From positions 1 to 23,902 of IMG/VR virus record IMGVR_UViG_3300042868_003801: a DNA stretch of 23,902 nt. One strand, written 5' to 3'. This document shows, piece by piece, positions 1,558 to 22,855 of this stretch. The position numbers and the translations under genes are program-made. The notes below the pieces were generated by a model that was not told the DNA's origin, did no database searches, and saw only the letters and a program-made list of their open reading frames with translations. How positions within the stretch are numbered: the first letter of the stretch is position 1; each line of letters opens with the position of its first letter. Source of the DNA: a virus.

Positions 1558-1588
1558 TTGCAATCAATTAAAAACCTTTGTAATATTG
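1558..1588 (+). promoter_or_regulatory. Putative Bacteroidota-type early promoter
   Basis: TTG at 1558-1560 is followed after 20 bases by TAATATTG at 1581-1588, close to TTG-N19-21-TAnnTTTG. The -33 box lies inside TTTTACAATTTACTTGCA, nearly identical to the sequence at the promoter near 3411, so this is likely a phage-specific promoter class. Transcription would start about 25 bases before the ATG at 1620. Confidence 0.6.
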
Positions 1589-6103: not shown

Positions 6104-6137
6104 TTGCCCAAAAATGCCCTTTTTCTATAAACCTTTG
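6104..6137 (+). promoter_or_regulatory. Possible promoter of the replication gene
   Basis: TTG at 6104-6106 and AACCTTTG at 6130-6137 resemble the Bacteroidota boxes, though the spacing (23) is long and TA is replaced by AA. AAAAATGCCCT (6110-6120) plus ACCTTTGTA is shared with 3163-3187. A start near 6144 would put the ATG at 6150 almost at the transcript end. It is next to palindromes that could act as operators. Confidence 0.4.
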
Positions 6138-6149
6138 TAAAACACGAAA

Positions 6150-8357
6150 ATGAATGTAACGCTAGGAAGAGCAATCAATTTACTGAACTCAGGGTTCAGC
6201 GTAATGCCCATATCCGAGGGTAAAAAGCCTCTGATTTTATGGAAGGAATACCAGACAAAAAGAATAGAAAAGTCAGAATTAGAGAAGCTTGAAGCTAAGA
6301 CCAAAGGATACGGTATTATCACTGGTTATTATAATGTTGAGTGTATAGATGTAGACTTAAAGGTATTTCCTACGATCCAAGACGGAAAGAAGTTCTGGAG
6401 CGACTTTATTTCTTTTATATCTGATTATATTGATGACTTTAATAGAAAGTTTGTTATATATAAGACTATAAATTCTGGTTACCATATTATATATAGATGC
6501 TCTAAGGTCGAAGGCAACAGAAAGCTCGCGACACTCAAGGGACATTCTCAAGCCTTAATTGAAACTAGGGGTACTGGTGGTTATATATATATCTACGATA
6601 ACCAAATCTCGGACTTGTCTTATGAGCAAGTGCAGGAGATCACAGAGCAGGAGCGAGAGATTCTCTTTGGATTGTGCCGATACTTTCACTACGATGAAGC
6701 CAAGGTGGAAGCTAAGGTGGAAAATACAGAGTATAGTGGATTGACTCCTTGGCAGGATTACAATCATAGAAACAGAGTGCTAGATTTGATTGCAAATGAG
6801 TTTACCGCAGTTAAGCATCTGGCGGATCGCATAGTCATAAGAAAAACTAATTCTAAGGATGCTTTGCATGGATTTATCTACAAGGATACAGGTCTCTGTT
6901 ATCTCTTTACTACGGCCACGATTTACCCCCATGAGACGCCTCTGACTCCGTTTAGTATCTACGCTTACAAGTACTTCAATGGAGACTTCTCTGCTGCTGC
7001 TAAGGAGCTGTACAAGGAAGGCTATGGAGAGAGGAAGATCCGCAAGGTAGAGATTGAGAAGATTGATATTCCACAGGAGGATTTGATATTTCCTATTGAT
7101 GTGTTCCCAGATTCATTGCAGAGTTATATTCTGTTAAACCAGAAAACACTTAATCATTCTATTGACTACATGGGATGCTCCTTGCTTTGGCTTCTGTCGC
7201 TCTGCATTGGTAATGCTTGCAAGGTGGAGGTAAAAACAGGTTGGAGAGAGTCTTGCAACATTTGGATTGGCTTGATAGGAAAGGCAGGTTTAGGTAAGAC
7301 TCCTAGTATAAATGCCATAATCTTCCCGATAGCTAAGAAGAATAGCTTTGAGATTAAGCACTTTCAAAATGAGTACAAGAAGTACAAGGAGTACGAACGA
7401 TTGACTGCTAAGGAGAAGAAGGATGTGGAGGAAGTTAAGGAGCCTGTGAGAAAGCAGTTGATAGTAAATGATATCACGGTTGAGGCCTTAGCGGATTTGC
7501 ACGAGGAAAACCAGGTAGGCATTGCGGTATTTAAGGATGAATTGAACGGATGGATTAAGGACATGAATAAGTATAAGCCTGGTTCTGATCTTGAGTTCTG
7601 GCTGTCCTGCTGGTCGAATCAAGCAGCGATTCTGACAAGGAAGACTGCAAAGAGTAGCTTTGTTGCAAGTCCATTGATTCCTGTGCTAGGTGGTATACAA
7701 CCTGGTATATTTTCTCAGATTTCAACCATGGAAAACAAAGACAATGGATTCCTAGACCGATTGCTTGTAAGCTACCCTGATAAGGAGATTGAGCATTACA
7801 ATAAGAACTCGATTGACCAAGAGATATTGGATTGGTACGAGGCTTACATTAGTCAGTTCTATAACTTAGTTAGAAACCAGGTGTTGCAGTACAATAAGTT
7901 CGGTGAGATTGAGAGTAGAATCATTCGATTTGATAGCCAAGCAGATATTGAGTGGGAGCGGATATTCAACAACATCACAGACTTGCAGAACTCTGATGAT
8001 ATATCAGAATATGTAAAGTCGATGTTGAGTAAGCAAAAAGCTTATGTGCCTAGATTTGCTCTGTTAATTAATACCTTGTGGTCATTTGAGACAGGAAAAG
8101 ACTTTGACTTTGTTACTAAGGAAAGTTTGCTCAAGGCAGAAAAATTGAGTAACTACTTTATTGCGATGTCTAAGAAGATTAAGGTCAGTAGCTTGGAGTC
8201 TAATGAGCTTAGTGAGATTATTAGGTCTATGAAGAATGAGTCCATAGAAAAGAAAATCGAGATGATTAATAAGACCATTCCTGATTTTAACCGCTCTGAG
8301 TTAGCAGAGTTATTGAATGTTAGTAGAACAACTATTTATAAACACTTAAATAAATGA
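6150..8357 (+). CDS. PrimPol / DUF3987 replication protein
   Basis: A 735-residue replication protein combining a primase-polymerase and a helicase-like ATPase. Residues 1-190 match bifunctional (AEP) primase-polymerase: VECIDVDLK with D67 and D69, SGYHIIY with H112, and ETRGTGGYIYI near 138-148. After a linker, residues 315-690 follow DUF3987, with Walker A GKAGLGKT at 377-384 and an acidic FKDELNGW strand around 450. The last 25 residues read RSELAELLNVSRTTIYKHLNK, a helix-turn-helix that could bind origin DNA. It sits beside the palindromic repeats and overlaps the next gene by four bases. It would start and drive phage DNA replication. Confidence 0.88.
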   Translation: MNVTLGRAINLLNSGFSVMPISEGKKPLILWKEYQTKRIEKSELEKLEAKTKGYGIITGYYNVECIDVDLKVFPTIQDGKKFWSDFISFISDYIDDFNRKFVIYKTINSGYHIIYRCSKVEGNRKLATLKGHSQALIETRGTGGYIYIYDNQISDLSYEQVQEITEQEREILFGLCRYFHYDEAKVEAKVENTEYSGLTPWQDYNHRNRVLDLIANEFTAVKHLADRIVIRKTNSKDALHGFIYKDTGLCYLFTTATIYPHETPLTPFSIYAYKYFNGDFSAAAKELYKEGYGERKIRKVEIEKIDIPQEDLIFPIDVFPDSLQSYILLNQKTLNHSIDYMGCSLLWLLSLCIGNACKVEVKTGWRESCNIWIGLIGKAGLGKTPSINAIIFPIAKKNSFEIKHFQNEYKKYKEYERLTAKEKKDVEEVKEPVRKQLIVNDITVEALADLHEENQVGIAVFKDELNGWIKDMNKYKPGSDLEFWLSCWSNQAAILTRKTAKSSFVASPLIPVLGGIQPGIFSQISTMENKDNGFLDRLLVSYPDKEIEHYNKNSIDQEILDWYEAYISQFYNLVRNQVLQYNKFGEIESRIIRFDSQADIEWERIFNNITDLQNSDDISEYVKSMLSKQKAYVPRFALLINTLWSFETGKDFDFVTKESLLKAEKLSNYFIAMSKKIKVSSLESNELSEIIRSMKNESIEKKIEMINKTIPDFNRSELAELLNVSRTTIYKHLNK

Positions 8358-15303: not shown

Positions 15304-18300
15304 TTAGTTTTTTAAAGTGTCTATTTCTTCCTTTAACTCTTTTATTGCACTTACCAATAATGGAATTAATTCTGTATATCTTAATCCTAATTCTCCATTT
15401 TTATTTATTGATATAGCTTCTGGTAAAACTTTTTGAACGTCTTGAGCAATTAAAAATGAACGGCTAATATTATTTGAATCAGTTTTATACCTAGAAGTTC
15501 CACTTCTAAGAGTTATTATTTTTTGTATTGAATTTTCAAATGGTTTAAACTCAGACATTACTTTTGTTTTTTCATCTGAAATTGAAGTCCAAGACGTTGC
15601 TCCATTTATTAATTGAACCCCTCCACCGTTATTTAATACATTTAAATCAGTATTATTATTTAAAATATAATTTTCATCAGCAACAGTTCCACTAGTTCCA
15701 TCACCAACATAAAATTGAAATCTATCTGCTGTTGTTCCATTTCTTAAAATTAAAGCTTGATTTCCACTTTTACCCATTATTGCAGCACCACTAACTTGCA
15801 ACTTTGCTCCATTATCCGTTGTCGTTCCAATAAGCACGTTTCCGCCTGAGGTGATGCGCATTCGTTCGGTATCAGTAGTACTAAATATTAAAGGGTGACT
15901 TGAAATTGTAAGTAATCTAAATTCATTTGCTTCACTATGATATTGAAAATATGCTGATGCATTATCAGTTGATTCTATTAATTTAATTGTAGGATAAGTT
16001 CCTCTTTTTAATACTAATTGTTCCGTTGGGTTATTTTCACCAATGCCTACGTTCCCTGCCCCAGTAATACTCATTCTTGTAAGTCCACTACCTACATTAT
16101 TTGTACGAAAATTTATAGGAATATTTTGCTCCGAAATAATTCTAAATTCTGTCGATAAGCTTTGAATCCAGTTTTGTACTGTATTTCCTGTATTATCCAT
16201 AAAAAATATGGCGCTAGAATTATCTGAACTTCTTGCCCATAAGTATAATGGAACTCCAGCAACGTCACTTTTTAGAACAAGACTTGCAGTAGACCCCTGC
16301 ATAGTTGTAGTACCTGTCAACGTACCACCACTTAAAGGAAGATACCCCCCTACAACAGAAGGAGCTTTATTATTAAATGTTGTCCAATCGGTGCTAGATA
16401 GGAAACCGTTTTGCGAACCACTTGCCTGCTGAATAGTAATATTTGGAGTAGTACCACCGCTAGAAAACAAAGGACTTGATGCGGTTACCGAAGTTACAGT
16501 CCCGACATTAAAAGTCCTATCTGCACTTAGGTCTTGAGTAGTTCCGTTTATTGTAATAGTTCTACCAACAGGGACGTAAGTTGTTGAATCAACTGAACCG
16601 TCAGCTTTAAGAAATTGGCTACTTGTGCCCCCACTTTTGATAAAACTATTTGCGGTTAAATTTCCAGTAAATCTACCTGTTCCATTAACGTCAAGTTGAA
16701 ACCCTGAGTTAGATGGTGATGAACCAATAAATACCTTTCCATCTGAAAATATGCGAATTCGCTCAATACCAGAAGTATAAATGCCAACATTATTTAAATC
16801 TGGATATTTTACACCTGATGAAAATGTATTATTTATTTCAGCAAATAAATTAGAAACAAAAAGGTCTGAAAATCTACAAGCAGTTTCAGATACTGGAGAA
16901 CCAGATGTTGATTCTAATTTTATTCGTAAAAATGCAGCAGAACCTAAAGGAGTTGTTTCATTATATGTTAAAGTTTCATTAACTAATGCAGTCGCTCTGG
17001 TAGTAAATGAAGACCCATCGGTTGAGGTTTCAATTTTTACAGATGTCCCTAAAGAAACATTATTAGCAGTTGCAGTTAAAGATATTATTCCTGTCCATCC
17101 TCGTGGTAAAACTGTTCTAAATCCACCTAATACAAAGTAAGCTTCTGTTGCAAATCCACTTAATCCAGATAATCCAATAGAAGTTCCGTTATATGAAATA
17201 TTAGCTATATTTCCATCTACTGCAAAATAATTTTCTGCTTGTGATAATGAAGAAATTAAAATCTCAGAATTTACAATATTTAAAGCTGTTTTTGTGCTTC
17301 CAAATACTTCTAATTTTGATTTTGGAGTACTAGTCCCAATTCCCAGCCTGTCATTTGTAGCATCCCAAAATAAATTACTTTCTCCAGTTATTGCAGAACC
17401 CGAAGACCAATAAGCCACTTGTCCAGCGGAGCCTGTTCCTGTGACTGGATTAGTTAAAGCATTCTGCTTGCTATTAAAAGTACTCCAATCCGCACTGCTT
17501 AATGCTCCTCGGTTAGTTGCCGATGCAGTAGGCAGGTTAAAAGTATGCGTAGCCGTAGCACTTGCAATGTTAAAGTCAGTTCCGCTAGTACCAACCGCAA
17601 AGAACTGCACCTGAGCATTCAAGCCATTTAACGAAGTCAATCCAGTTGTAAACGTGGTGATAATCTGACACAAGTGAGGGCCCTCAGTATGCAAAGTAAT
17701 CGTTCTACCACTATGAGTTACATAGTAACGAACCGCAAGCCTATCAGTCAAAGCAAGCACAGTAGTAGGTACTGCAAGCGAAGAAAAATAAGGCGTTATA
17801 TTTGTACCAAAAGCAATTAATTCAGGGATTGCACTACTACTAGCAATCAAAGTAGCAGTACCACCTGCATTAACCTTGTAAAGCTCAACATAGAAAGTAG
17901 GACTTCCTCCACCACTTGATGCACTAAAGTAACTTTCAAAATTCCAGTTACCGCCTGGAATCTCTAGCAAGTTAGGATCTCCTGCATCAGTAATAAACGA
18001 AGCAATGTACCCGTCAGCAGCGATTGTAAAGTCAGTACCTTCTCCCAAAATGGGAACTTTATTCATCTCTAAATAAGCAACTCCTCCAATAGTTCCTTGA
18101 CTTACCGATCCGTTCAAGTAATAACTTACAGAAGAACCTCCACCGCTAGACTCTGGAAAGTCAGCCAATGTTCCATCTCCCCTGACATACTGAGCAACCG
18201 TACCTGCTCCTGTAACCGCAATTGTCCCATTGCTAGTCAATGGGCTATTTGCAACCGCAAACGCAGTAGGCATAGTGAGACCTACCGAGGTTAAAGAAGT

Positions 18301-18414
18301 ACCAGGAGGGTTAACAGGATCGACACTTTCACCTACTAATGAGCCTGGACTACTAGGAGATACTCCTGTCCTTACTTTTCTTGCCGAGAAAAACTTACCT
18401 GGTACGTCTGCCAT
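15304..18414 (-). CDS. Tail fibre/tailspike with S74 self-cleaving C-terminus
   Basis: A 1036-residue host-recognition protein. The long middle consists of beta-rich repeats with recurring phrases such as RLGIGTSTPKSKLEV, NVGIGENNPTEQL, NVLIGTTTDNGAKLQV and STDWTTFNNK. The C-terminal ~95 residues are a Peptidase_S74 intramolecular chaperone: SDEKTK with Ser near 946 and Lys five residues on (the catalytic dyad), SFLIAQDVQKVLPEAI, and GLRYTELIPLLVSAIKELKE. In this family the chaperone helps the trimer fold and then cuts itself off. The gene begins just after the tail hub gene and is the largest here. Confidence 0.92.
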   Translation of the reverse strand: MADVPGKFFSARKVRTGVSPSSPGSLVGESVDPVNPPGTSLTSVGLTMPTAFAVANSPLTSNGTIAVTGAGTVAQYVRGDGTLADFPESSGGGSSVSYYLNGSVSQGTIGGVAYLEMNKVPILGEGTDFTIAADGYIASFITDAGDPNLLEIPGGNWNFESYFSASSGGGSPTFYVELYKVNAGGTATLIASSSAIPELIAFGTNITPYFSSLAVPTTVLALTDRLAVRYYVTHSGRTITLHTEGPHLCQIITTFTTGLTSLNGLNAQVQFFAVGTSGTDFNIASATATHTFNLPTASATNRGALSSADWSTFNSKQNALTNPVTGTGSAGQVAYWSSGSAITGESNLFWDATNDRLGIGTSTPKSKLEVFGSTKTALNIVNSEILISSLSQAENYFAVDGNIANISYNGTSIGLSGLSGFATEAYFVLGGFRTVLPRGWTGIISLTATANNVSLGTSVKIETSTDGSSFTTRATALVNETLTYNETTPLGSAAFLRIKLESTSGSPVSETACRFSDLFVSNLFAEINNTFSSGVKYPDLNNVGIYTSGIERIRIFSDGKVFIGSSPSNSGFQLDVNGTGRFTGNLTANSFIKSGGTSSQFLKADGSVDSTTYVPVGRTITINGTTQDLSADRTFNVGTVTSVTASSPLFSSGGTTPNITIQQASGSQNGFLSSTDWTTFNNKAPSVVGGYLPLSGGTLTGTTTMQGSTASLVLKSDVAGVPLYLWARSSDNSSAIFFMDNTGNTVQNWIQSLSTEFRIISEQNIPINFRTNNVGSGLTRMSITGAGNVGIGENNPTEQLVLKRGTYPTIKLIESTDNASAYFQYHSEANEFRLLTISSHPLIFSTTDTERMRITSGGNVLIGTTTDNGAKLQVSGAAIMGKSGNQALILRNGTTADRFQFYVGDGTSGTVADENYILNNNTDLNVLNNGGGVQLINGATSWTSISDEKTKVMSEFKPFENSIQKIITLRSGTSRYKTDSNNISRSFLIAQDVQKVLPEAISINKNGELGLRYTELIPLLVSAIKELKEEIDTLKN

Positions 18415-18415
18415 A

Positions 18416-20635
18416 TTAACTTCCTACAATGTCTAATCTTGCTAATTCCAATCTCCAACTATTTGCCATTAAATCTACCTCCATTGCAACTACCATCCAA
18501 TAATGTCCATCGTATTCGATGTTCTGATATGGCTTAATCTCCAATGGATTTGCAGCGTCTCTAGGCAATGTTAGTATTAATCTAGGGTTCTGCTGACCCT
18601 TTAAGTTTGCTAACTCCTGAAGATATATCTGAATCAATGGTAATGACTCGATACCATCCCTAGACCAAGCCTGAGAATTTGGATTGCCATATCCAGCCAA
18701 GTCGAGCCGTATAGCACTACTTGAGTTTTCTGTGTCGACATCACCGATGTTAAATTTGACATCTTCGTAGACATTTGAGTATGATTCATCTGTTACAAAC
18801 TTTTCTGATATTTCCGTTGTCGCAAAGGCATCATTTTCCTCGATTTTAAGCGACATATTTCTATAACCTACTGTGTACTTATCAACAGAGTTTGAGTTCG
18901 TTGTAATGACCTCATATAGCCTTATAATCACATTGCCATCTTCTGGTACAACTACATTGAAAATGTCTAGCTTATTCCATCCAAATCCGCCCATTGGGAA
19001 CTGCATGATTGTAAAAGTAGGCAGCCAAGTAAAAACATCAACACCATCAAAAGACAAATAACTTGACCCGATGTTAATTACTACTCCTGCATTTGTATTT
19101 GGCCTTGGTAAATCTCCTCCAACTCTTGGTTCAAATATAAACTCAAGCTGAAAACTTAAAGTATTCGCTAAGTCTTGAGCAATAGGAATGCCTGTAAATA
19201 CTCTAGTAGAATCAAGTTCTATAAATGATAATGCTGTATCTGCTGTTCCGCTTACTGAACTTGTTCCCCATATCTTAGCATATTCTCCTGAAGCACTAGA
19301 TACATATTGAATTTTAGCAGGATTAATTCCTGTTGGATATGAACTAGGCTGATTACTAGGGATTGCACTAACATAGTTCCATAACCTTAACTGATAAGTA
19401 CCTGGATAGGCAGTTCCAGGTTCATTAAACTGCCAAGAATCAATACTAAACGGTTCCTCATAAATACCACCACGAGATGAGTAGTCCAACACACCAAGCT
19501 TTAATGTTCCTGTAAACTCGGTATAAACAGGTCTACCTGTGCGTTGCCCTGCGGTAAACTTGCAAGACACATCCATGCCAGGTGTAATTGTTGTTATCCC
19601 TTCTCTTGTAGCGTCTGTATTATAGTTAAATAGTCTATAACTATCCTTTCTCAATTCAGGAAGTGAGATGATGTAAAACTCATTCTTCCACAAGAAAACC
19701 CTGCAAAGAAATGGCTTTAGCAAGGATTCTAGAAAATCAGAAATGTAAACAGATGTGTTTTCAACAATGCCATTACTTGATAGATACAAAGGTATCTCGC
19801 CATCTGTAAATACTGCATTAGCAGGAACTATTAGCTGTTCAAATACTCCATCACTAGTATCTAGCCTAGTCTCGTAAATTTCACAAGCAATATTGACTGG
19901 TCTCAACAAAGGGAATGTTTGGTTTAACGCTCCAAAGAAGCCACCAATAAATGTGTTGCCTGAGAATCCATCAAAGTATTGCTCATTTACTCTCTTTGAG
20001 TCAAAGGAATTAAATCCATCAGAAGCAGTAAACTCCATAACTTCTCTAATTCCAACCTCGTTTATAGTAAGCGTAGAATTGTTTATGTACCCTTCCCAAA
20101 ACAAAGTTCCCTCAATTAGCACTATTACTAGCCACTTTCTATAACCTCCTTCAAGTATTTCAAAGTACTCGTCTCGCATTCCTACAAGACCGAAGTTAAA
20201 GAAGCTACGAACTATTGGCTCTATCTCATCTGCACCAAAGTTTCCCCAACGAAATGAGAATCCTGCCGTATCTTTTTGGGTTGCAGAACCAACATATCCA
20301 AACTCATAAATCTCTAGTCTTATAAGCTGATTAGACTGATCCTCAGTTTCAGAAAAGTACTTTAATTCATAGTCTGTATCGCTAGGGGTAAATGTGCCTG
20401 TAACAGTAACTCTAAGTTTAACATCCCTAGAGGGCATATTAAAAGTCCAAGGGTTTGTTATCGCAGTCAGAAACCCAGTGTTAATGTCATAGGAACTAAA
20501 AGTAAACCCAGAATCGAATGTTCCTAGAATGGTTAATGAAGTTCCTTCCTCATAGAATAGTAAAGGAGCAACGCCATTAACTGTTATTGAACCTGTGCCT
20601 CCAAATATTGCCGAAATGAATCTATATTCTGCCAT
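18416..20635 (-). CDS. Tail hub/baseplate-type structural protein
   Basis: A 739-residue structural protein between the tape measure and fibre, the usual place of tail-tip (Dit/Tal-type) proteins. The first ~82 residues (GGTGSITVNGVAPLLFYEEG... then FNMPSRDVKLRVTV) resemble an InlB-type B repeat, a beta-grasp module with the telltale MPSRDVKL. The rest is beta-rich with RKWLVIVLIEGTLFWEGYIN and a long C-terminal region with LKGQQNPRLILTLP. A close function is not visible, so the assignment is by place and size. Plus-strand gene 20707-20877 lies upstream, interrupting the operon. Confidence 0.7.
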   Translation of the reverse strand: MAEYRFISAIFGGTGSITVNGVAPLLFYEEGTSLTILGTFDSGFTFSSYDINTGFLTAITNPWTFNMPSRDVKLRVTVTGTFTPSDTDYELKYFSETEDQSNQLIRLEIYEFGYVGSATQKDTAGFSFRWGNFGADEIEPIVRSFFNFGLVGMRDEYFEILEGGYRKWLVIVLIEGTLFWEGYINNSTLTINEVGIREVMEFTASDGFNSFDSKRVNEQYFDGFSGNTFIGGFFGALNQTFPLLRPVNIACEIYETRLDTSDGVFEQLIVPANAVFTDGEIPLYLSSNGIVENTSVYISDFLESLLKPFLCRVFLWKNEFYIISLPELRKDSYRLFNYNTDATREGITTITPGMDVSCKFTAGQRTGRPVYTEFTGTLKLGVLDYSSRGGIYEEPFSIDSWQFNEPGTAYPGTYQLRLWNYVSAIPSNQPSSYPTGINPAKIQYVSSASGEYAKIWGTSSVSGTADTALSFIELDSTRVFTGIPIAQDLANTLSFQLEFIFEPRVGGDLPRPNTNAGVVINIGSSYLSFDGVDVFTWLPTFTIMQFPMGGFGWNKLDIFNVVVPEDGNVIIRLYEVITTNSNSVDKYTVGYRNMSLKIEENDAFATTEISEKFVTDESYSNVYEDVKFNIGDVDTENSSSAIRLDLAGYGNPNSQAWSRDGIESLPLIQIYLQELANLKGQQNPRLILTLPRDAANPLEIKPYQNIEYDGHYWMVVAMEVDLMANSWRLELARLDIVGS

Positions 20636-20668
20636 TGGTCAAAAATACAAAAAAAAATAGGGATTATC

Positions 20669-20699
20669 TTGACTTATATTAACTCTTCGATTAGATTTG
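20669..20699 (+). promoter_or_regulatory. Bacteroidota-type promoter of the lone plus-strand gene
   Basis: TTG (20669-20671), 20 bases, TAGATTTG (20692-20699): a full match to TTG-N19-21-TAnnTTTG. The predicted transcript would start within a few bases of the ATG at 20707, so the mRNA may be leaderless. It points plus while all neighbours are minus. Confidence 0.75.
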
Positions 20700-20706
20700 T
20701 CACAAC

Positions 20707-20877
20707 ATGAACAGAACATTAAAAGAATCGTCAGATATTATTGCTAAGTGCATAGCCGAAATCAGGGAAACTCCTGACAACATCACAGACGAATTAATTG
20801 AGAAAAGTTGCATTAAGTACGATGTCGATGAAGATCGAATCCGAAAAATAGCACTACTCAGAAAAAGAGTTTCATAG
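20707..20877 (+). CDS. Lone plus-strand gene (moron-like) between tail genes
   Basis: A 56-residue protein (MNRTLKESSDIIAKCIAEIR...) with a predicted helical, charged body, a KSCIKYDVDEDRIRK segment that could be a helix-turn-helix, and a basic end (LLRKRVS). It stands alone on the plus strand inside the minus-strand late operon, with its own promoter (20669-20699) and terminator (20903-20934). That promoter-gene-terminator layout defines a moron, an extra gene often affecting host fitness or competing phages. The sequence gives no specific activity; regulator or anti-defence roles are guesses. Confidence 0.65.
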   Translation: MNRTLKESSDIIAKCIAEIRETPDNITDELIEKSCIKYDVDEDRIRKIALLRKRVS

Positions 20878-20902
20878 TAGTTATTTTGGGTTAAATGTTA
20901 GC

Positions 20903-20934
20903 AAAGACCTAGGTTTCTGACCTAGGTTTTTTTT
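20903..20934 (+). terminator. Strong intrinsic terminator of the moron-like unit
   Basis: ACCTAGGT occurs at 20907-20914 and 20920-20927; being self-complementary, the copies pair across the five-base loop TTCTG. An AAAG before and an eight-base T run after (to about 20934) extend the stem and give the tail. It ends right next to the stop of the tape measure gene (20933-20935) and may also slow transcription of the minus strand. Confidence 0.85.
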
Positions 20935-22843
20935 ATCTAATGCCTCTACGAATCTGAGCTTGCTGTACTGTGAACAAGATATCATCTCCATAAGATACTC
21001 CACGGATGTTTACATCAACTGCCATAGCTCCTGCTGACATTGATGCACCAGAATAGTCCATTGATGGCAACTGAGGAACAATAATCCCATTAGTGTTTGG
21101 CACAAACAACTCTGGTCTTTTTTCACCAACAATGTAGGCTCTTCCCTTAGATACAGGGCCACCAAATTCTCTTCTGTTTGTAAAGGTAGAACCTGACCCT
21201 GATGAAGTAGAACCTCCACCGCTAGTACCAAAACTTCCAAATGCAGCAAAAGCAGCAGCAACAACACCTAAAGCACCTGCTATAAAAGCAGGCAAAGTTA
21301 TTGGTGCAGCAGGGCCAGTAGCAGCAGCTGCTTGAGATGCACCTGCAACAGCATTAGAACCTGCTATTTTAAAGTTAGCAGCAACTAACTTAGCTGCAAA
21401 TCTTAAAAACTCTCCAAGAAATGTTCCTAGTTGAGGATTATTAAATGCTCTTCCGATAACAGAACCAAGTCCAACAAATGCTTGAGCTAAATCTTCTACT
21501 TGTAATTTACTATTTCCCAATAAAGCAGCTAGACCATTTTGAGCAGATTTTAATTGGTCTTGATATCTTGCTAATGCTTCAGGATCAGAAGTTACTCTAA
21601 TTAATTCTTGTAAGTCTGATATTTGTTTTTCAAATGTTTGAACTAAACCTAATTGCACCTTTGGTAATTCTAGTCCTTCAAGTTGACTTTCGTCGATCTC
21701 TATTTTTATTTGTATAGGTTTTTCAGGTGCTTCATATTTAAGAAGTTCTTCTAATCTTTTTCTAGCATACTCAGATGCATCACCAAATCGTTCTAAAATT
21801 AAAACTTGATCATCAAAAACTCTATTTAATCCTTCTGCACTTTCCTTAGCGGAATCAGCTGTTGTTTTGTAAAACTCTAATTGCTTATTTACTTTTTCAA
21901 GAACACCTCTATATAATCCAATTTGTTCAGTAGCTAAAGATTTTTCTAAAGTAGAATTAGAATTAGCAAAATCTCTTGTAGCACTTGCAATTTGTTCAGT
22001 AAGAAAGCCTTCTAATAACTCAAGTTCTTGTTTTCTTAGTCTATTAATTTTTCCAGATAAAGCATCAACCACTTGACCTGCTGTTTCAAATGCAGGAACA
22101 TCTATTAATTTACCACCAACATTTTCAGTTTTTAGTAATCCAACTTCTTTTAGTAACTTATTTAATAAACCTTGAGCTAATAGTCCATTGGTATCTTTTA
22201 AAGATTTATTAAAATCATCTTGAGCATCCTTTAATTCTTCAACAGGACTCTTAGTTTGTTGTGCAGATAGAGCAAAAGCCGTTAAAGCAGCAGTTACAGC
22301 AGAAACACCTAAAACAAGAAGATTAGCTGGACTAATTAAGCTAGTAAAAAATGTTTTTAAAGCTGCACCTGTACTACCTGTTGTGCCTTTTAAAGCAGTT
22401 AATTGTTCTGCAAATTGCTGAATGTTATTACCAATACCTATAATTCCAAAAGGAGCATCCTGAATAATTCTGTTAAATGCAATCGCTGATCCACCTGCTG
22501 CACCTGCTGATACTCTAAACTTATCAAAAGATTTTGTAGATGTATTAGCAAAAGACTTACCTAAAGAATTAAGTCTAGTAAGTTCTTGATTTGTTTGTTC
22601 AAGCTGAGCATTAAAACCAGCAATCTGTTGCTCATTAGTTGCTTGACTTAAAGAAACTTTAAGTGCTTTAGCCTTAGCAGTCAACTGCTCAATCAATCCA
22701 ATCTTTCTACGGAATCCTACATTGGATTTTTCAGAATCCGTAGCCGTTTCAGATTCAAATGATTTTAAACTTGCTTTCGCCTTGTTAAGGGCTGATTGCA
22801 AATCCTTTATATCCGCAGTTAATCTTATTTGAAGCTCATTCAT
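20933..22843 (-). CDS. Tail tape measure protein
   Basis: A 636-residue protein that would set tail length and pass into the host on DNA entry. It opens with coiled-coil heptads (residues 1-100: MNELQIRLTADIKDLQSALN... LTRLNSLGK), has a hydrophobic stretch at about 165-195 (LISPANLLVLGVSAVTAALT), further coiled segments (SDLQELIRVTSDPEALARYQ), an Ala-rich hydrophobic region near 510-545, and a conserved tail phrase GGPVSKGRAYIVGEKRPELF. At about 1.5 angstroms per residue it would imply a tail near 95 nm. It directly follows the tail chaperones. Confidence 0.9.
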   Translation of the reverse strand: MNELQIRLTADIKDLQSALNKAKASLKSFESETATDSEKSNVGFRRKIGLIEQLTAKAKALKVSLSQATNEQQIAGFNAQLEQTNQELTRLNSLGKSFANTSTKSFDKFRVSAGAAGGSAIAFNRIIQDAPFGIIGIGNNIQQFAEQLTALKGTTGSTGAALKTFFTSLISPANLLVLGVSAVTAALTAFALSAQQTKSPVEELKDAQDDFNKSLKDTNGLLAQGLLNKLLKEVGLLKTENVGGKLIDVPAFETAGQVVDALSGKINRLRKQELELLEGFLTEQIASATRDFANSNSTLEKSLATEQIGLYRGVLEKVNKQLEFYKTTADSAKESAEGLNRVFDDQVLILERFGDASEYARKRLEELLKYEAPEKPIQIKIEIDESQLEGLELPKVQLGLVQTFEKQISDLQELIRVTSDPEALARYQDQLKSAQNGLAALLGNSKLQVEDLAQAFVGLGSVIGRAFNNPQLGTFLGEFLRFAAKLVAANFKIAGSNAVAGASQAAAATGPAAPITLPAFIAGALGVVAAAFAAFGSFGTSGGGSTSSGSGSTFTNRREFGGPVSKGRAYIVGEKRPELFVPNTNGIIVPQLPSMDYSGASMSAGAMAVDVNIRGVSYGDDILFTVQQAQIRRGIR

Positions 22844-22855
22844 GATTCAAAAATA

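Follow-up and report, generated by a model that had tools for sequence, protein, structure and literature searches.

A small plus-strand gene lies within the minus-strand tail operon of the virus record analyzed here, which raises the question of whether it is a genuine transcription unit, how it came to be there and what its product does for the phage. From the 23.9-kb record alone (the window, that is, the whole stretch of 23,902 nucleotides), the gene had been read as a moron with its own promoter and terminator, of a kind that often encodes superinfection immunity, anti-defense or host-modifying factors. Here, this sequence-only reading is weighed against the same locus in related viral contigs and against structural models of the protein.

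The cassette and its expression signals

The 56-codon gene (MNRTLKESSDIIAKCIAEIRETPDNITDELIEKSCIKYDVDEDRIRKIALLRKRVS) extends from ATG to TAG at positions 20707-20877 of the plus strand and, as claimed, sits between two genes of the opposite strand. On one side is a tape measure protein (TMP)-like gene (20933-22843, minus strand) with matches to tape-measure PHROGs. On the other is a gene for a 739 aa protein (18416-20635, minus strand), for which its own family search yielded only a sub-threshold Pfam match and which we call hub because it follows the tape measure and precedes an S74/tail-fiber-like gene (15304-18414). The 297 bp gap between TMP and hub that holds the cassette is the largest of the minus-strand late operon, where most gaps measure -4 to 12 bp. 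The length of the ORF is unremarkable, given that the window holds 118 ORFs of at least 40 aa.

Upstream of the gene is a predicted promoter of the Bacteroidota sigma-A type, TTG(ACTT)-N20-TAGATTTG (20669-20699, plus strand). By itself, this pattern is at chance level, with 0.64 matches expected per shuffled window, and we rejected it as standalone evidence. What sustains the Bacteroidota promoter proposed earlier is the invariance of its boxes: across the aligned junctions of relatives, the TTGACTT and TAnnnTTG columns do not change and the spacer between them varies. Group B, one of the two allele groups of the ORF described below, has TATTATTG or TAATATTG as the box, which deviates from the consensus at one position. 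Larger relatives also carry the pattern TTG-N19-21-TAnnTTTG upstream of the early operon and of a late tail gene. The -7 box TAnnTTTG of Flavobacterium occupies positions -12 to -5 (PMC9723704), and by this rule transcription of the cassette is predicted to start at position 20704 (plus strand), leaving a 3-nt leader (AAC-AUG). The proposal of a leaderless transcript was thus nearly right, the leader inferred from the box position being three nucleotides rather than none. Leaderless or very short-leader mRNAs account for only ~4-6% in two mapped Bacteroidota. Furthermore, the predicted genes are devoid of Shine-Dalgarno sequences, as is usual in Bacteroidota (PMC6847099), and this absence, together with the promoter type, supports a sigma-A promoter and a host in this phylum. 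The host of this uncultured phage is therefore probably a member of the Bacteroidota; among 50,697 phage records, we found no cultured relative of either the hub or the ORF.

At the other end, the cassette is closed by an intrinsic terminator (20903-20934, plus strand) that consists of a 13-pair stem (20903-20931), with 8 core pairs, and a T run that reaches the TMP stop codon. Terminator-like sites are only in slight excess in the window as a whole (18 vs 12.7 in shuffled sequences). In the relatives, the stem occurs in four sequence versions, all of which keep 8/8 core pairs; pairs 1, 4 and 7 have changed on both sides of the stem, and these compensatory substitutions bear out the strong 8-bp-stem terminator noticed in the window. 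On the minus strand, no T run follows the stem, so the tail operon should read through it. Between the gene and the terminator is a conserved 3'UTR element, AGTTATTTTGGGTT (20879-20892, plus strand), which is present as AGTTWTWTTGGGTT in both allele groups and is one T shorter in a relative that lacks the ORF (L072).

The hub start carries a signal of its own. The motif TATTTTTGNNNNATG (20633-20647, minus strand), a candidate -7 box of a leaderless late promoter, recurs at the TMP start (22841-22855, minus strand), is invariant at both starts in 7/7 records and is absent from the rest of these records; the reversed control gave no matches. By the -12 to -5 rule, it suggests a transcript start at the A of the ATG, in which case the late mRNAs would lack a leader; alternatively, the motif may be a signal for translation.

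Conservation, selection and origin

We found the ORF in 35 viral contigs over two scans, one copy being frameshifted; three more copies are cut by a contig end. When the TMP-hub junctions of relatives were compared, as had been suggested for the moron proposal, the ORF was present in 32 of 34 hub-upstream regions, with one clean loss, one frameshift and, wherever present, exactly 71 nt between the two ATGs. The resulting 71 bp divergent intergenic region (20636-20706), from the hub ATG to the cassette ATG, is thus constant in length and largely kept in sequence across 32 junctions. The ORF falls into two allele groups, A and B, with dN/dS of 0.067 within group A, 0.26 within group B and 0.19 between the groups; the comparison with the hub alone involves a single pair and is only indicative. 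In group A, substitutions are mainly at third codon positions (e.g. 1, 1, 11), and the proteins are 89-98% identical. These ratios, far below 1, show selection on the protein. A reading frame broken by stops or free of purifying selection in relatives, which would have spoken against a functional gene, is not what we observed.

The two exceptions are L072 and L049. In L072, exactly the ORF is missing, and the promoter, 3' element and terminator are retained; the two ends meet at a short CATA-like repeat, and the ORF may have been lost recently, by deletion between CATA repeats. L049 has lost 11 bp directly behind the start codon, which disrupts the frame, and the remnant is not preceded by any in-frame start that could be used. 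The gene is thus dispensable in some members of the group. Taken together, the conservation of the ORF, the invariant boxes and the covariation of the stem indicate that the parts of the cassette are real; it is the comparison that is decisive, the window alone being at chance level. This comparative analysis shows that the cassette is a genuine, selected protein-coding transcription unit directed against the tail operon, and its gene is, by its distribution in the available contigs, near-core within a genus-like group of phages.

The cassette appears to have been inserted. In the outgroup L129, where the homology of both flanking genes is supported, the TMP stop codon overlaps the hub ATG and the cassette is absent. 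L129 is distant (25% identity for hub and 34% for the TMP N-terminus), and with this one distant outgroup, the simplest reading is that the group's ancestor acquired the cassette between its TMP and hub genes and that it was then retained. A further candidate outgroup, Cellulophaga phage phi10:1, has a matching TMP that abuts the next gene, but homology of this next gene to hub is not significant, and therefore phi10:1 was not counted. The hub tree suggests exchange of cassette alleles between phages, with allele A requiring 2 changes, but the AU test gives p 0.055. As a separate observation, TMP varies from ~41 to 92% identity (best segment) between phages with hub proteins that are ~77-91% identical, so the TMP ends look like recombination borders.

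Whether the cassette is a moron depends on what the term is taken to mean. Morons are unique to, or occur in a limited set of, related genomes, and they often, although not always, have a foreign base composition. Occupancy of nearly every junction sets this cassette apart from a sporadic extra, and the ORF shows no anomaly in composition (35.7% G+C vs a window mean of 37.7%, sd 5.2 for 171-bp pieces). In its original sense, the term denotes a full transcription unit that was added to the genome of a phage (PMC6316719), and here the in silico evidence agrees, with conserved promoter boxes and a covarying terminator, both the cassette's own, on the strand opposite to its neighbors, and with two flanking genes that adjoin seamlessly in L129. 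Thus, the cassette is a moron by architecture and near-core by distribution, with a new family of small orphan proteins as its product. It differs from other morons also in showing no sign of lysogeny: no integrase (PF00589) was detected in seven records, which are possibly incomplete, and the species genomes searched contained neither the ORF nor the hub gene as a chromosomal copy, so that a benefit to a lysogen is without evidence. By description, the cassette resembles the morons of the lytic siphovirus SPP1 (PMC6316719), which are likewise small additions inside the late module, one of the SPP1 segments being bracketed by transcriptional signals; here, the position is between TMP and hub, and the host phylum is likely different. 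In layout, it also resembles STMMW_20121 of prophage ST64B (PMC7067206), which is antisense to lytic genes and has its own promoter (predicted in our case), but belongs to a known prophage and has measured transcription.

The predicted fold of the orphan protein

The sequence-only reading assigned the product to no known family, and our searches agree: sequence searches with the protein against Pfam, PHROG, PADLOC and the PDB yielded no convincing family match. We dismissed as noise the Sp-DndD, PqqD and PHROG matches, which are far below the cut-off or weak and inconsistent among members, the PDB sequence matches to a phytoplasma effector and to an entry named NF6 (E 0.22-0.93) and a match to MT836377 (E=2). 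By inspection of the sequence, the 56 residues include ~12 acidic and ~12 basic ones but no hydrophobic stretch, which argues against a membrane superinfection-exclusion factor.

The AF2 models predict a three-helix protein with a homeodomain-like topology for both alleles, with helices 5-21, 28-38 and 42-49 in the window protein (pLDDT 81.5) and 5-21, 28-38 and 42-54 in allele B (pLDDT 71.9); the C-terminal helix is modeled with low confidence, and the alignment behind the prediction is shallow (Neff 1.4). Among the best 50 Foldseek matches in the PDB, both allele models retrieved almost only homeodomains. The closest superimpose at ~1.5-2.2 A over 41-45 residues, with TM scores up to 0.70, and none is significant (best E 0.41 and 0.46). 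Three-helix bundles are common folds. The invariant residues include R46, K47 and K53 in helix 3 and R3 in the N-terminal arm. The protein therefore shares with homeodomains and other three-helix helix-turn-helix (HTH) proteins the predicted order of helices, the topology and a basic third helix, but it originates from a bacterial virus and has no significant match in fold or sequence. No Pfam HTH family matches at the cut-off, and an attempt to compare its profile with those of two HTH-bearing proteins from this phage was unsuccessful. We give about an even chance that this is a helix-turn-helix DNA-binding protein. The structure and profile searches recommended for the 56-residue product thus provided a model for both alleles, with no significant fold or family match.

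Possible roles of the cassette

The predicted fold weakly favors a small DNA-binding regulator over a membrane or defense factor, and we tentatively consider the best explanation, at somewhat less than even chance, to be a small HTH regulator whose gene diverges from hub and is expressed early through a promoter of host type. Under this model, the host sigma-A polymerase would use the promoter of the cassette shortly after the DNA enters, and the almost leaderless mRNA would end at the cassette's own terminator. The putative regulator would contact DNA via helix 3 (R46, K47, K53) and the N-terminal arm (R3), and its target, most simply, would be the 71-bp divergent region shared with the hub promoter, where it could adjust its own expression and hold back transcription of the late tail genes. 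At a later stage, tail transcripts from the minus strand would cross the cassette as antisense and silence it. Head-to-head gene pairs are a common layout of a regulator and its target. In line with this model are the conservation of the gene under purifying selection, the fixed 71-nt spacing, the invariant boxes, the covarying terminator, the L129 junction, the lack of Shine-Dalgarno sequences, the three-helix models of both alleles with their mostly homeodomain matches and the divergent layout; against it stand the non-significant folds, the shallow alignment, the lack of a Pfam HTH match and the two relatives without an intact ORF.

No operator for the cassette protein was found, the 71-bp divergent region being the likeliest candidate site. 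We also considered an operator shared with early promoters. In several relatives (L191-L195), the early promoter contains a palindrome, TACAAACCTTTGTA, with the -33 box on one side and the -7 box on the other; its form in the window, AAACCTTTGTA, has 4 matches at no more than 1 mismatch vs 0.87 expected, including 1572-1582, within the early promoter at 1558-1588 (plus strand), and 6129-6139. The palindrome is likely an operator for a phage repressor, but it is missing from the cassette promoter. Separately, a gene at 6150-8357 (plus strand), near those for an Erf annealing protein and an exonuclease, encodes a Prim-Pol/DUF3987 helicase fusion with a C-terminal HTH-like segment.

Nearly as likely as the regulator is a cytoplasmic anti-defense or exclusion factor, that is, a functional moron, expressed early or constitutively, that would block host defense, inhibit a host protein or protect against competing phages and take no part in phage gene regulation. 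Thus, of the superinfection or anti-defense role proposed from the window, the membrane form fares poorly, and the cytoplasmic form keeps roughly a one-in-three standing. An autonomous opposite-strand unit inserted relative to the distant outgroup, an orphan small product, two allele groups and loss or frameshift in two relatives, as expected for a conditionally useful gene, all suit such a factor, and a position antisense to lytic genes has been called characteristic of prophage moron loci (PMC7067206). The near-universal presence in the group, selection that is purifying rather than diversifying and the lack of lysogeny evidence, of a PADLOC match and of a membrane segment count against it.

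It is unlikely that the RNA or its transcription matters more than the protein, with a short RNA (3' element and terminator) or the opposing promoter tuning the TMP-hub transcript. ORF-less L072 keeps the promoter boxes, the AGTTATTTTGGGT element and the stem with its own compensatory changes, but could be a recent deletion; the 3'UTR element is more conserved than expected of a spacer; and the predicted cassette RNA folds better than shuffled sequences (z -3.2), but the terminator hairpin is probably behind much of this score. An Rfam search with the cassette RNA gave no match, and the low dN/dS reflects selection on the protein. Least probable is a virion or tail-assembly accessory protein placed on the other strand by happenstance, which would fit the fixed place in the tail module but not the early-type promoter and opposite strand that uncouple the gene from late gene dosage, the natural losses of the ORF or its absence from the outgroup with the same TMP-hub pair.

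To return to the regulator, a bolder and rather doubtful extension is that these proteins represent an unrecognized family of phage regulators, minimal in size and homeodomain-like, whose genes stand head-to-head with a tail gene. They would act as an early/late timer: sense expression early on would keep the tail promoter repressed, until late read-through on the antisense strand shuts the regulator off. How Bacteroidota phages control their late genes is poorly known. With the cassette, a gene family under selection is now defined that comes in two alleles and includes natural knock-outs (L072, L049). Should its product control the divergently oriented tail promoter, Bacteroidota phages would have in it a timing switch of very small size; if it is an anti-defense factor, the TMP-hub junction would be a precise locus for collecting more such factors.
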